This document shows positions 31,432 through 37,364 of a DNA stretch of 64,000 bases, piece after piece. The translations under genes and the position numbers were made by a program. Origin of the DNA: Bradyrhizobium sp. CCBAU 051011. GTDB taxonomy: Bacteria > Pseudomonadota > Alphaproteobacteria > Rhizobiales > Xanthobacteraceae. The stretch is taken from positions 6,428,501-6,492,500 of the forward strand of contig NZ_CP022222.1 in assembly GCF_009930815.1 (NCBI RefSeq), in the 5' to 3' direction. The stretch's first letter is position 1, and each line of letters starts with the position of its first letter. The notes beneath the pieces are model-generated. The model was given only the letters and a program-made list of their open reading frames with translations, was not told the origin of the DNA and made no database searches.

Positions 31432-32559
31432 TCAGGTCTGCGCGCTGCGGGCGAGGCGGGCCAGCATTTCCGTCACCTGCTGTTCGCGCTCCCGATCCTG
31501 CGGCACGCGCGCCCGCTCCTGAGGTACGCGCACTCGCTCTCGCTCTTGGGGTACGCGCGCGCGCTCTTGGGGTACTCGCACGCGCTCCTGCGGCATGCGG
31601 GCGCGCTCCTGCGGCACACGCGGCCGCTCCTTGGGCACGCGGGTTTGCTGCACGGTCTCGGTGCGGCGCAGCCGGGCATCCTCGCCATGGAACATCGGCT
31701 GGGGCGAGGGCTGGGGCGCGCGCCGGGTGCGAGCGGAATCCCACATCTTGCCCCGCTTCTTGCGCATGGCGCGGCGGGCCCGCATGCGGCCGATCCTCAC
31801 CATTGCACTGACCGTGATGCCGGCCAGCGCGAGCGCGGCGGCCACGACGAGAAACAGCATCTGCAGCGACGCGGTCGGCTTTGCCGGCACCGCCACCGGT
31901 TCTGCCGGGGCGGGCGTAATCTGATCCACTGCGGGCTGCTGCACTTCCGCAGCCGGCGGCGGCTGGTTTGCGGGCGTCGCGGCGGCGGCGACCTGGATAG
32001 CGGCCGGCGTGGTCGAAACGCTCGCGGCGGTCGGAGCATCGTTCCAGCGCATCGACCACAGCGGCGCCGGGGCCAGCACGTTCGGCATGGTTGCGCGCGG
32101 GCTGTTCTGAGCTAGCACCGTGCCGGTCGTTTGCGGCTCGGCTTTGGCGGGCTCGGTGCGGGGCGGCTGGGACACCCATTCGGCGCGCGCGTCGGAGATC
32201 GATTTGCGTGGGGCTGGCTGTGGCTGCGGCGCTTCTGCTGCGGCCGAAGACGGCGCAGGCGCCGAGGCAGGCGGTGCGGCGCGCGCGAACTTGTCGTCGG
32301 CCTTGTCGTTCTCCTCGCGCAGATACCAGCACTGTCGTTTGGTCGTGCGATCGATGCGATAGTACCAGTGGCTGCCCGCAGGCGTCGCGCCCTTCGGCGC
32401 GGACAGGCAACTGTCCGCGGCCGCCTGGGCCACTTGCACGCCGGCTTCCGCCGCTGGCTCCGCCGCTTGGGCCCGGAGATCCGTCACAGTGGCCAGATTG
32501 GTTGCTGCCACAATGCCAGCAACGAACGCCGGGACGAATTTCACGGAACGGTACGACAT
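31432..32559 (-). CDS. Exported single-pass membrane protein with VPQER repeat tail
   Basis: 375 residues from ATG 32559: a signal peptide or anchor (about 1-30), a periplasmic part with two cysteines in a conserved-looking segment (DSCLSAPKGATPAGSHWYYR...QCWYLREE), a long Ala/Pro-rich linker, one membrane helix (TASLQMLFLVVAAALALAG), a basic stretch (RARRAMRKKRGK), and a cytoplasmic tail with seven or eight copies of a VPQERAR heptad. If the first segment is cleaved, the repeat tail is cytoplasmic. Function unknown. Same strand as the two paralogous secreted proteins and the caspase-like gene. Confidence 0.65.
   Translation of the reverse strand: MSYRSVKFVPAFVAGIVAATNLATVTDLRAQAAEPAAEAGVQVAQAAADSCLSAPKGATPAGSHWYYRIDRTTKRQCWYLREENDKADDKFARAAPPASAPAPSSAAAEAPQPQPAPRKSISDARAEWVSQPPRTEPAKAEPQTTGTVLAQNSPRATMPNVLAPAPLWSMRWNDAPTAASVSTTPAAIQVAAAATPANQPPPAAEVQQPAVDQITPAPAEPVAVPAKPTASLQMLFLVVAAALALAGITVSAMVRIGRMRARRAMRKKRGKMWDSARTRRAPQPSPQPMFHGEDARLRRTETVQQTRVPKERPRVPQERARMPQERVRVPQERARVPQERERVRVPQERARVPQDREREQQVTEMLARLARSAQT
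31492..31641 (-). repeat. Tandem 21-base repeat coding VPQERAR
   Basis: About seven imperfect copies of a 21-base unit encode R-V-P-[KQ]-E-R-[APVE] repeats; one copy carries an extra two-codon insertion (ERVR). Good candidate for length variation between strains. Confidence 0.75.
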
Positions 32560-32675
32560 CGATAACCCCGGCAACGCTACGCAACGCGACGCTTGATGCG
32601 CCCAATCTGGTCAGAGACTTGGGTCGCAATGAGCCGCAATTTCGGAGCGGTTGGGGTTTAATTGGGGCTTGCGCG

Positions 32676-32693
32676 CTGCCTCATATGAGGCAG
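32676..32693. promoter_or_regulatory. Perfect 18-base palindrome
   Basis: CTGCCTCATATGAGGCAG is its own reverse complement over all 18 bases. It lies 117 bases upstream of the VPQER-protein gene and 36 bases beyond the end of the secreted paralog gene on the same strand. Either an operator for the former or, less likely, a terminator stem for the latter (there is no loop or T run). Confidence 0.5.
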
Positions 32694-32728
32694 GCTAAGG
32701 CCATGAAAGATCTGTGGAAAACTGGCTT

Positions 32729-33247
32729 CTATTGTTTAGAAGCAGTCCAACGTCCGGAACATCCGTCCGATCGCACGAACGAGCCGGAGCCGCTGCGGCC
32801 CGAGAAACGCCCGGTACTGGTCCAGCTCAAGCCCTGGACGGATCCGCCGCTCCGCGTCGCGCCATTGGCGCTGACCGATCCGGAGCTCAATTCGCCGGAA
32901 ATTCTGCCCCCGGAGATGACGAATCGCTCGGTGGCGCTGCCGCAGGGCGTGCCCACGGCAACGGAAACCCATGAGCCGTCGAAATTGCCGCCGCCACCGC
33001 CGCTGCCTTCACCGCCGCTTCGGCGCGACGCCCGTCGAGGCTCGTCGGATTCGGGCTTTGCACGGCGCACCGGTTTTGAGGGTTCGACCGTGCGCGGCGC
33101 CTCGCGCGAACCGGACAGCGATTTTTCGTCGTTGCCGATGCTGCCGCCGGCGCTGCCGGATTGCGCGAGCGCGGCGCTGTTGATCGCAACCAAAATTGCG
33201 AGTGGGAGGAGGCCAATTCGAAGCGAAGGTTGAGCCGAGTATTTCAT
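32729..33247 (-). CDS. Secreted FDGSW...CSGRW-type protein, copy A
   Basis: 172 residues from ATG 33247: signal peptide (to ...NSAALAQ), a Ser/Gly/Arg-rich linker (SGSAGGSIGNDEKSLSGSRE and a stretch with RRAKP, EPRRAS), then a compact domain of about 90 residues beginning FDGSW and ending DGCSGRWTASK, with two Cys (TPCGS and DGCSG). Similar domains occur in many periplasmic rhizobial proteins; I know no assigned function. It is a tandem paralog of the next gene upstream. Confidence 0.7.
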   Translation of the reverse strand: MKYSAQPSLRIGLLPLAILVAINSAALAQSGSAGGSIGNDEKSLSGSREAPRTVEPSKPVRRAKPESDEPRRASRRSGGEGSGGGGGNFDGSWVSVAVGTPCGSATERFVISGGRISGELSSGSVSANGATRSGGSVQGLSWTSTGRFSGRSGSGSFVRSDGCSGRWTASKQ

Positions 33248-33290
33248 AATGAAATGTTCCACAATTCCCCGGCTGTGATGGACAGCCGCG

Positions 33291-33800
33291 CTATTGCTTG
33301 GATGCTGTCCATCGGCCGCTGCATCCATCGGATTGCCGGAAAGTCCCGGAGCCGCTGCGGCCGGAAAGTCGGCCGACGCTGGTGGCGGTGACGCCGCTGG
33401 AATTGTTGATCGCGCTGACTGCGCCGTTCGGGCTGACCCGTCCGCTCACACCCTGCCCAATGATTCTGCCGCTGCTCACCACGACAGCGTTGCGGCTGCT
33501 GCCAGAGCACGTGGTGCCCACACTGTTGACGACCCACGCGCCGTCGAAACTGCCAACACCTCCACCGCTGCCCTGCGAAGCGCGGCGCGGCTCGTCCACC
33601 TCGGGCTTGCTGCGCCGTGCGGGCTTTTCCGATTCAGTTGCGCGGGGCGGCTCGCGCGAGCCGGACAGCGATTTTTCGTCATTGCCGATGCTGCCCCCGG
33701 CGCTGCCGGATTGCGCCTGCGCAAGGCCGGAGCCGAACGCGAGCGTGATCGACAATGCGAGGAGAACGGTCCAGATCGAATGGCGGGCGGCATCTTGCAT
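33291..33800 (-). CDS. Secreted FDGAW...CSGRW-type protein, copy B
   Basis: 169 residues from ATG 33800: signal peptide ending ...GLAQAQ, the same linker as copy A (SGSAGGSIGNDEKSLSGSRE) with RRSKP and EPRRAS, then a domain FDGAW...GCSGRWTASKQ. The linker and the last 20 residues are nearly identical to copy A while the domain core has diverged, so this is an old duplication or one partly homogenised. 43 bases separate the two genes. Function unknown. Confidence 0.7.
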   Translation of the reverse strand: MQDAARHSIWTVLLALSITLAFGSGLAQAQSGSAGGSIGNDEKSLSGSREPPRATESEKPARRSKPEVDEPRRASQGSGGGVGSFDGAWVVNSVGTTCSGSSRNAVVVSSGRIIGQGVSGRVSPNGAVSAINNSSGVTATSVGRLSGRSGSGTFRQSDGCSGRWTASKQ

Positions 33801-33834
33801 GAACAGGTGCTTCCAAATCTCTTGAACAAAAATT

Positions 33835-35184
33835 CTAGGGGCCCGATCCATCCGCACAGACCGCGCCAATAATACGGCAAGATTTGCCAGCCTTGCCGCA
33901 CTCGTCAAGCGCAGCGTCCCTGGCGCGCTGAACGGTGTCGCGCTGAACCAGCGACCAGGATTTTCCCGAAATCGCGAACGCGCCGCACCGCGCGCCGTAA
34001 AAACTCAGCTCGACCGGACATTTGCTGGTGCCGCAATTCTTCAGCGCATCATCGATCGCCGCCCGCCGCGACGAATGATTCCACGACATGCCCCATTTGT
34101 CGCTGTCGGGGCCGAACACGATCGAGCCCCACGGCTTCAGGTCTTCCATCTTGCGCAGCCGCGTCAGCACGCCTTCGGTGGCGTCGCCGGTCGGCGTCAT
34201 CTTCACCTTCTCCTGAAACTTGGAGATCGCGGCGCGCATGCCGTTCTTGCTATCGAGCGGCTCCGGATCGTAATTGAGCTCGAACAGGCGATCGCTCAAT
34301 TCGCGCAGCAGGATGGGATCCTTGATCGGCGTGCGGTCGGGATCAGGGCGCAGCGTCGAGGTCAGCGGTTGAGGCGGTGGCGCGACGGCGACCTGCTGGG
34401 CTGATGGAGCAGGCGGCACGAAATAGAAATTGCCGTCGATCGGCGAGGACGACACCCAGGGCTGCTGCGATCCGCCGGTCTGGCGTTTTACGGCAAGGCC
34501 GACCTGGTTGAAGGTCTGGAAGATATCGAGCCCGGCCTGCTTGATCGTCGTGGCAAGCGCCCTGGTGTAGGGACTGTGGCCGTCGGTGCCATCGAGCGCG
34601 ACATTGCCGGGCTGCGTCGCATAGGAGATCAGCGTGCCCTCCGGCGCGCGCATTTGCGCCAGACCGCCGTCGGAGGCGCGCAAGCCGCGCGCGCCGAACG
34701 GGTTGTTCCGGCAGGCATCGAGGATCACCATGTTGAGCCGCGTGCCCGAGCCCTGCATCTGGCGCAGCACGAGATTGACGTCCACCATCTGGAAATCGAC
34801 ATCGGCCTCGCGTGTCGGATTGGCGCCGACCGGCACCAGATAATTCGAGCCGGACACCTGCACGCCGTGGCCGGCATAATAGAACAGCGCAACATCGGCG
34901 CCCTGGACCTGGCGGCCGAAATTCTGCACGGCGATATCCATCGCCGGCTTGTCCAGATCGAGCTGGGCACGGCCGCCGATCAGCGTGAAGCCGAGCGAGG
35001 CCAACGTCTCCGCCATCAGCGCCGCATCGTGGCGCGGGTTATCGAGCCGGGTCACGTTGTGATAGGCGGAATTGCCGATGACGAGCGCAACGCGCTTTTC
35101 GGCGGCGGCAGGCGTAACGAACAGCAGGGCGACCAAAACCGCCAGCGCCGAATTCCTCCAGCTACAAGCAAAAGCCCCGTACAT
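33835..35184 (-). CDS. Exported caspase-like (peptidase C14) protease with DUF4189-like C-terminus
   Basis: 449 residues from ATG 35184. A signal peptide (to about Ala28) is followed by a caspase p20 domain (KRVALVIGNSAY...) with catalytic His106 in YYAGHGVQ and Cys158 in LDACRNNPF. Then comes a p10-like part, a helical segment resembling a peptidoglycan-binding domain (LLRELSDRLFELNY...), and a Cys-containing C-terminal domain like DUF4189 (WGSIVFGPDSDKWG...CGAFAISG). Bacterial orthocaspases of this type cut after Arg or Lys. The open frame continues 93 codons upstream but that part is a repeat element. It sits just upstream of secreted copies A and B. Confidence 0.85.
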   Translation of the reverse strand: MYGAFACSWRNSALAVLVALLFVTPAAAEKRVALVIGNSAYHNVTRLDNPRHDAALMAETLASLGFTLIGGRAQLDLDKPAMDIAVQNFGRQVQGADVALFYYAGHGVQVSGSNYLVPVGANPTREADVDFQMVDVNLVLRQMQGSGTRLNMVILDACRNNPFGARGLRASDGGLAQMRAPEGTLISYATQPGNVALDGTDGHSPYTRALATTIKQAGLDIFQTFNQVGLAVKRQTGGSQQPWVSSSPIDGNFYFVPPAPSAQQVAVAPPPQPLTSTLRPDPDRTPIKDPILLRELSDRLFELNYDPEPLDSKNGMRAAISKFQEKVKMTPTGDATEGVLTRLRKMEDLKPWGSIVFGPDSDKWGMSWNHSSRRAAIDDALKNCGTSKCPVELSFYGARCGAFAISGKSWSLVQRDTVQRARDAALDECGKAGKSCRIIGAVCADGSGP

Positions 35185-35505: not shown

Positions 35506-36057
35506 GCAGTGGTTTTAACGCTTATGCCGCGTTCTCCCCGGAGCCGAATTCCTCTGGCCTCCGTCGCCGACGGATTGACGATTGATCGAAAGCCCGGTCG
35601 GGCCCGACAATCTCCATCGGCTTGACACCAGCAACGGGTGCCAGGACCGCGCGGTTTTGCCGTCCACGGCTTCCCCGGACAAAGCGCTTCGACCGGCCCG
35701 TATGCTGCCGGAAGAAGTTTTGCCCGAAGCGTTTAAGCGCCGGTCGTCTGCGCGTCCGTGTCCGCTCACGGAAAGTCCAGCCTGCGAACCCATCGCGCGC
35801 CCGAACGCTGCCGCGTCCACCGCAACCCGTCCCAACGTTCGTGACGCTGGCCAACGCCCCTCTGTCTCAAGGACGGGATAGCGGGAGTTGTAGGTTTGAT
35901 TTGGGTGCCGCGTTAAGCGAAAAATTTTGGGGGGGGGGGGGGAATATGTTTCTTGCCAGCAGGGGCAAATCAGTGATTGGGGGCGGGGGGGAAGTTGCGC
36001 GGGGAGCGACTATTGTATGCACTCAATTGAGACGTACGGCTTCATCAGGTTTCACCG
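35506..36057. other. Gene-free stretch with a 14-base G run
   Basis: Between the caspase-like gene and the RelA/SpoT-like remnant there is about 1 kb without a credible gene. Translations are Arg-rich noise. It contains an uninterrupted run of 14 G (35929-35942) and a second G-rich tract around 35979-35990. The 35520-35880 part looks like degraded intergenic repeat. Confidence 0.5.
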
Positions 36058-36212: not shown

Positions 36213-37364
36213 TTGTGGCTTCCGGAAATGGAATGGGCTGTTCCAAAGCACGCCAAGAAGCGCGTTAACTGGGCTGGGAAAATGCTCCTTGCCGAGGTGC
36301 CGCCCTTTGATTGGTCTGCGGCAGAACGGGGCGAAGAATATACCGGCAATGACGCACATCACGCGTGGGCGCAGGACTATTTTGAAGCGCTGGACATAAT
36401 TAACAACTGGCGCTCATCGCATAACTTTCCGCTCAACACCTTTCATATCGGCCTCAAGCGCCGAGCAAAGATTATTGATCCCAAAGCGATCACCGCACAG
36501 AGGATTAAGCGTCTAGCCTCGATCGAAGCCAAGCTTCGTCGCTTCCCGACCATGACACTCTCTCAGATGCAGGATATTGGAGGTTGTCGCGCTATCGTTG
36601 CAACGGCGCAGGGCGTTGCAAAATTATGCGAGAGCTACGCTGAGAGCGACCTGAAACATATCCTGCATGAGACTGACAACTACATCGACACGCCAAAGGA
36701 TTCCGGGTACCGCGGCGTGCACCTTATTTATCGATATCATTCCGACAGAAGGCAGGACTATAACTCGCTGAAAATCGAGATGCAGCTGCGGTCGCAGTTG
36801 CAACACGCGTGGGCGACGGCTGTCGAGACCGTCGGCGCATTTGTTCGTCAAGCTTTGAAGTCAAGTGTTGGTGAGCAAGAGTGACTTAGATTCTTTGCCC
36901 TGATGGGAGCGGCGTTAGCGTTCCGAGAAAACACTGCGCCGGTCCCAGGCACTCCAAGCGCGTACTCAGAGCTTGTCAAAGAAATCCGCGAGCATGCGAA
37001 ATCGTTGGAAGTAGCAAGCAGGCTACAGGCCTTCGGCGCGGCGCTTCAGTATTATGAATCGAAACAATCTAAGAATACCCACTACTACCTAGTCGAGGTA
37101 AACCACGCTCAAAGAACCCTAAGCGTGACCGGCTTTAAACAGAGCGAATCGGAAAAGGCGACCGCAAAGTATTTGGAAGTCGAGAAAAAGATAAAAGATA
37201 CCAGTCCAAATTCTGACGCCGTGTTGGTGTCCGTGGATTCGATGAATTCTCTTCGTCAGGCTTACCCGAACTACTTCTTAGACACGGGCGTGTTTGTAAA
37301 CGCTCTGCGTGCGATTTTGGCACCTCCGAGGGTTATCGGTAAAGGTCGTATCCGACAGACATAG
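36213..37364 (+). pseudogene. RelA/SpoT-domain protein split by an in-frame TGA
   Basis: One reading frame from about 36213 (TTG) or 36228 (ATG) to 37364 is interrupted only by TGA at 36882-36884. The first part has the alarmone synthetase core: KRRAKIIDPKAITAQRIKRL, DIGGCRAIV, SGYRGVHLIYRY and IEMQLRSQLQHAWA. After the stop the same frame continues LRFFALMGAALAFRE and a further 150 residues. A TGG-to-TGA change (Trp to stop) in GEQE-W-LRFF is the simplest cause. Full length would be about 380 residues. It would make or degrade (p)ppGpp-like nucleotides. Its lower GC and repeat-rich surroundings suggest it was acquired. The N-terminal fragment keeps the catalytic part. Confidence 0.8.

Follow-up and report, generated by a model that had tools for sequence, protein, structure and literature searches.

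We analysed a 64,000-nt window of Bradyrhizobium sp. CCBAU 051011 (NZ_CP022222.1; all coordinates below are window positions) that encodes an exported caspase-like protein, two secreted paralogues, A and B, and a membrane protein with VPQER repeats. An initial annotation of the sequence had placed four same-strand genes here, each with an N-terminal export signal; the open reading frames (ORFs) were all found at those positions, on the minus strand, and inspection revealed an export signal in each of the four proteins. Its description of A and B as tandem secreted paralogues also holds, with 62% identity between them, as does the spacing that it gave for the first three genes, with gaps of 34 bases between the caspase gene and A and 43 bases between A and B; a further 169 bases separate B from the VPQER gene. 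That annotation missed the main feature of the locus, a conserved tag at the N-terminus of mature A and B. This tag heads several kinds of secreted proteins and is genomically linked to the C-terminal PG_binding/DUF4189 (PD) module of the caspase.

Domains of the exported caspase

The caspase matches Peptidase C14 (PF00656; 3e-41, 142.1 bits, curated cut-off 21.4) and DUF4189 (PF13827; 4.3e-22, 79 bits, curated cut-off 25). Between these domains, the PG_binding_1 (PF01471) region of the window caspase scores 18.3 bits, under the 23-bit curated cut-off, which is passed in relatives from the genomes G020 (36.2 bits), G658 (32.6 bits), and G546 (33.4 bits). His106 and Cys158, described earlier as intact, do not vary across a 39-row alignment comprising orthologues and seven paralogues from the window genome; three dyad-less paralogues of that genome (L098, L099, and L100) were left out of the alignment. 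In these three pseudo-orthocaspase-like proteins, the His-Cys dyad is replaced by Tyr/Ala, Phe/Ser, and Tyr/Ser, respectively. The fold of the catalytic domain is closest to MALT1. Asp53 and Asp156 align with residues that we take to be Asp365 and Asp462 of the MALT1 S1 site, while the third MALT1 residue lies outside that alignment.

The EACC1-associated caspase model NF047832 reaches 64.1 bits, under its 140-bit curated cut-off, and the PADLOC defence caspase model PDLC02987 gives a partial match (1.1e-9) covering model positions 5-130 of 453 only; PADLOC returned no match for A, B, or the VPQER protein. The YARHG domain is not among the Pfam matches of the window caspase at E<=1. The window genome has 15 C14 matches in total, and one of its C14 genes (L106, C1:7481437 region) is apparently split across two overlapping frames. 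A large caspase expansion is seen in G658, with 31 caspase-profile matches at E<=1e-8 in one 6.3 Mb genome.

Table 1. Features of the caspase locus (window positions).
Feature	Positions	Strand	Details
Exported caspase-like protein	33835..35184	-	449 aa; signal sequence, C14, PG_binding-like region, DUF4189
C14 catalytic domain	34423..35097	-	residues 30-254
Catalytic residues of the caspase	34867-34869; 34711-34713	-	His106; Cys158
PD module	33838..34335	-	residues 284-449; PG_binding_1-like (sub-threshold here) and DUF4189
Paralogue A	33291..33800	-	signal sequence, tag, basic linker, 8-stranded barrel
Tag of A	33654..33713	-	residues 30-49; QSGSAGGSIGNDEKSLSGSR; Lys43
Paralogue B	32729..33247	-	architecture as in A
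Tag of B	33104..33163	-	residues 29-48
VPQER-repeat membrane protein	31432..32559	-	neighbour, judged outside the system

A conserved tag on secreted proteins

Mature A and B open with the general tag QSGSxGGSIGNxxKSLSG, and in the A/B family the N-terminus reads QSGSxGGSIGNDEKSLSGSR. Across 58 tagged A/B rows, the mean majority fraction is 0.93 for the tag, 0.70 for the barrel, and 0.66 for the linker; the tag is thus the most conserved part of these proteins. It is disordered in the structural model. The linkers, which have low predicted local distance difference test (pLDDT) scores and are probably disordered as well, are basic: they average 8.8 Lys and Arg residues, never fewer than 6, and 53 of 58 contain an RR pair. 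The initial annotation had treated an Arg-rich linker with the motifs SREAPR, RRAKP, and EPRRAS as the key element of both proteins. All three motifs are present in B, whereas A shares only EPRRAS and has SREPPR and RRSKP in place of the others, and the weight given to the linker is at odds with its lower conservation. Moreover, Arg directly follows the tag in 54/58 A/B proteins but in only 7/137 other tagged proteins, and the Arg of SLSGSR was therefore ruled out as a universal cleavage site. The tag Lys is found in 195/195 tags fitting the scoring pattern, and by eye in the remaining three, although this invariance is partly built in because the tags were gathered by similarity.

The 8-stranded barrel of A and B resembles ligand-binding barrels but other folds too. 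The 8-stranded barrels of NHBA, TbpB, HphA/hemophilin, QHNDH, and Cap15 serve as comparisons of fold, not of sequence relationship, and no function follows from the fold matches because barrels designed de novo reach equal scores. The tag is absent from many secreted FDGxW-type barrel proteins (for example L095, L107, and L116), and the A/B profile at E<=1e-6 matches 98/198 family genomes, mostly across the barrel alone.

The tag also occurs outside the A/B family. At one locus of G020 (L109), a C14-PG_binding-DUF4189 caspase is followed by four tandem secreted proteins that all start with AQAGSxGG(S/T)IGKQxKSxSG and have divergent remainders. A protein search with these four and a fifth from G020, in which 7997 candidates were scored, gave 571 proteins at E<=0.01; among the best 120 of the 571, the strict tag pattern is present in 109, and all 120 reach at least 10 bits against the tag profile. 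We assembled a set of 202 proteins, comprising 198 tagged proteins and four tag-less outgroups added on purpose. Their 197 C-terminal parts of at least 50 residues fall into four groups (65, 64, 38, and 27 members) and three singletons at BLAST E<1e-4. Judged by these comparisons, the tag heads secreted proteins of at least four unrelated C-terminal domain groups. One tagged protein of G658 (L195, 5524-6093, minus strand) shows a weak SUEL-lectin similarity in its C-terminal part (E 0.07, below the cut-off).

Genomic linkage of the tag and the PD module

To describe the neighbourhood, we surveyed the best 80 of 175 confirmed orthologous stretches, with 67-95% identity to the caspase. An A/B-type gene adjoins the caspase in 78/80 loci, and the two misses (L034 and L072) are contig ends that stop at most 20 bases from the caspase. 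One of the loci (L043) has a masked run within the A/B-type gene, and in another (L092) the A/B-type copy diverges from the family near its end. In three Rhodopseudomonas loci (L076, L077, and L089), the partner lies on the opposite strand, with no gmk-cluster match in the DNA examined. A stop-to-stop ORF in L086 gave the impression of a caspase fused to A, but the two genes lie in different frames, and a fusion was ruled out. Similarly, an FDGxW-only protein near a second caspase of the window genome (L095) was not taken as a partner because it lies more than 2 kb away, with intervening genes, and has no tag.

The pairing extends to the family level. Of 198 family genomes sampled, 22 have a full-length match to the caspase, and the same 22 have a full-length match to A/B. 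We then searched 391 family genomes, several of them metagenome-assembled genomes (MAGs), with a tag-profile cut-off of E<=1e-3, excluding caspase matches that end by model position 303 as catalytic-domain-only paralogues. The tag profile gave 124 matches in 75 genomes, and a caspase match running to the end of PD was found in 70 (69 at E<=3.5e-201 and G658 at 4.6e-138). Seventy genomes have both the tag and a full-length caspase, five have the tag only, and none has the caspase only. In 69 of the 70 full-length-caspase genomes a tag lies within 3 kb of the caspase; the sole miss, G530, has two tags at the start of another contig. The initial annotation had named the lack of a conserved neighbourhood as evidence that would count against it, and here the neighbourhood is clearly conserved.

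Among the 124 tags, 93 lie within 3 kb of a full-length caspase and 31 elsewhere, ten of these in G546. Of the close tags, 91 are downstream and two upstream; 85 are on the same strand and eight on the opposite strand, seven of the latter in the genus g28, where the partner is inverted in 7/7 genomes having the pair. Co-transcription, which had been presented as a requirement, is therefore not supported as one. The Fisher value for co-occurrence of tag and caspase is 5e-72 but is inflated by kinship among the genomes. Given this relatedness, independent support comes from the distinct settings (the gmk site, the Rhodopseudomonas site, G020, G658, L092, and G546) rather than from the p-value. 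Core-gene synteny was ruled out as the whole explanation, as the pair is also found away from the gmk cluster and inverted. In an order-level sample of 297 genomes, the tag at E<=1e-3 occurs in only six, all of the same family, and neither A nor the PD module of G546 matched anything in a plasmid collection at E<=1e-3.

In three same-genus genomes without caspase-PD, loss of the caspase is accompanied by A/B-type genes that appear damaged. The A/B frame of G649 has no visible signal sequence, and its start is overlapped by a caspase remnant; in G660 (at the gmk cluster) and G668 (at another site), the A/B-type frames diverge from the family before their end. G580, an 84% complete MAG, encodes a tagged protein that looks intact; a PD search at E<=1e-8 found nothing there. 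A second conserved site is formed by L108, L199, and L202, which carry tagged A/B copies with the same flanks in three genomes and without a nearby caspase; the copy in L199 looks broken.

The PD module is not confined to one catalytic domain. In G658, two tagged genes, one per strand, lie directly upstream of a PD-bearing caspase whose catalytic domain shares 66% identity with L096, a paralogue in the window genome, and clusters with L096, L101, and L102 (100/99). Its PD is nearest to that of G020 (63%), followed by that of G546 (57%). G546, a 91% complete MAG, yielded no C14-PD protein at a cut-off of E<=1e-8. Its PD (E 1.5e-82) instead lies at the C-terminal end of a protein that also contains a Ser/Thr kinase-type domain (Pkinase 3.6e-25, matched over profile positions 64-198 of 263 only), a hydrophobic segment, and repeats; the ten tagged proteins of this genome are dispersed and of several types. 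G658 and G546 together show PD combined with one kinase-like protein and with no fewer than two caspase subfamilies. Among 310 sampled genomes, a strong PD match (E<=1.1e-76) is present in 39, 38 times on a caspase and once on the kinase-like protein, and all 39 genomes have tags. G042, which gave only a weak match confined to DUF4189 (1.1e-13), is not among the tag genomes. We take the presence of tags alongside PD in 39/39 genomes, across different catalytic domains, as the main argument that the tag is partnered by PD and not by the protease domain.

The fourth gene of the locus carries a VPQER repeat, as described earlier, in tandem and mostly at 21-nt spacing. It had been counted as a component of the system, but the protein is found in 8/8 genomes searched, including 6/6 same-genus genomes without the pair, and we therefore regard it as a bystander. 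By inspection, the repeats are probably cytoplasmic, given a signal sequence, one hydrophobic segment, and a basic tail. Beyond the caspase, a RelA_SpoT-domain frame (8.1e-15; 36213-37364, plus strand) is interrupted by an in-frame TGA at 36882-36884 and is open again at 36903-37364, and a run of 14 G lies at 35929-35942, between the caspase and this frame.

Proposed docking of the tag and alternative explanations

Based on these observations, we propose that a periplasmic caspase works with A and B as its tagged partners. The exported proteins would present a flexible N-terminal tag, a basic disordered linker, and a small binding-type β-barrel, and the tag would dock on the PD module at the C-terminus of the caspase. 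The exchangeable barrels and other domains may then provide a single PD-bearing effector with subunits for sensing or targeting. That effector would be a protease in the window genome and in almost all relatives, and a putative kinase-like membrane protein in one lineage; ligand binding by the secreted domains may control or direct it. We favour docking and ligand presentation because they fit all cases, G546 included, and assign a probability of about 0.42 to the reading that the tag docks interchangeable secreted binding domains on PD, an ectodomain coupled mostly to a protease. The broader form, a modular periplasmic receptor with a constant docking tag, many secreted binding domains, and one DUF4189-type ectodomain, whose output would be proteolysis in two or more caspase subfamilies and kinase-type signalling in a single lineage, is more tentative.

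Several points on G546 weigh against docking. The kinase-like PD fusion is known from this one genome with an incomplete domain, and the final 180 bases of the contig contain a stop but do not encode a kinase N-lobe. The kinase-like protein, whose activity is putative, may thus have been cut short or wrongly assembled where the contig ends, and the missing N-lobe lowers our confidence in docking.

The strongest alternative is that A and B are substrates: the caspase would read the tag, cut after the conserved Lys (Lys43 in A), trim the N-terminus, and thereby release or activate the linker and barrel. This model is compatible with docking, with PD as the tag reader, and is consistent with the constancy of the tag Lys and with the alignment of Asp53 and Asp156 to the presumed S1 residues of MALT1. 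Furthermore, characterised non-metazoan C14 proteases prefer Arg or Lys at P1 (PMC5756287), and the orthocaspase MaOC1 offers a precedent, as it cleaves the product of a neighbouring gene (PMC7935541; papers are cited here from the part of their text available to us). However, a substrate model predicts a protease in the compartment of the tags, whereas G546 has kept PD and tags but has no known protease that bears PD, and exported proteins would be out of reach of a cytoplasmic kinase domain. The constancy on either side of the Lys also appears to exceed the needs of a cleavage site. We consider cleavage at the Lys plausible, though less probable than docking.

Less probable again is a role for A and B as inhibitors or chaperones, in which the tag would fill the active-site cleft like a substrate and silence the protease. 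Gene pairs of a protease and its inhibitor are known, and small secreted β proteins with an extended N-terminus adjoin the caspase here, but ten tagged proteins occur in G546, where no C14-PD was found, and one tag is common to several different domains. It is similarly improbable that tag and PD never touch and the proteins are inherited together as members of one pathway, with the tag used for another step such as envelope sorting or attachment. The 31 tags away from a full-length caspase and the tagged protein of G580 fit such a scheme; the presence of tags in every strong-PD genome, across catalytic domains and loci, and the broken A/B genes of G649, G660, and G668 argue against it. The model of the initial annotation, in which the caspase cuts the linker arginines and frees the barrels, agrees with the basic, probably disordered linkers and with cleavage after Arg or Lys by C14 relatives (PMC5756287), but it is quite doubtful given the weaker conservation of the linker, the rarity of the post-tag Arg, and the kinase-like case of G546, which it leaves unexplained.

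In relation to known systems, the window caspase shares with prokaryotic caspase homologues and orthocaspases (PF00656) the C14 domain, the His-Cys dyad, and the MALT1-like fold. It is set apart by a C-terminus dedicated to PG_binding/DUF4189 and by its tagged secreted neighbours; some prokaryotic homologues are recorded as having export signals and PG-binding domains (PMC3501461). MaOC1, which adjoins a toxin-antitoxin pair and acts on its neighbour's product (PMC7935541), is likewise a bacterial caspase homologue beside a candidate-partner gene, but the candidate partners here are different, are exported, and share a tag. YARHG, an extracellular domain common to Ser/Thr kinases and a secreted Bradyrhizobium caspase (PMC3355149), is alike as an ectodomain on kinases and a caspase but was not found in the window caspase, and the available part of that paper describes no tagged partner proteins. 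DUF4189/Rv1813c has a solved, exported, disulfide-containing fold; Rv1813c is secreted as a stand-alone protein (PMC10269737), whereas DUF4189 here is the C-terminus of a caspase. In the literature text available to us, no paper was found linking caspase, PD, tag, and A/B, the tag strings gave 0 papers, and no described role was found for exported caspases of this type. What would be new is the tag-PD system taken together; its parts (C14, DUF4189, PG_binding, and small barrels) were already known.

The tag provides a sequence handle for finding partners of an exported bacterial caspase. The 18-20 residue tag peptide, the ~166-residue PD, and a C158A caspase are small and expressible, making the partner question directly testable. 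If docking is true, a single ectodomain would serve different catalytic outputs by way of secreted subunits that can be swapped, which would amount to an adaptor-plus-effector logic in the bacterial envelope.

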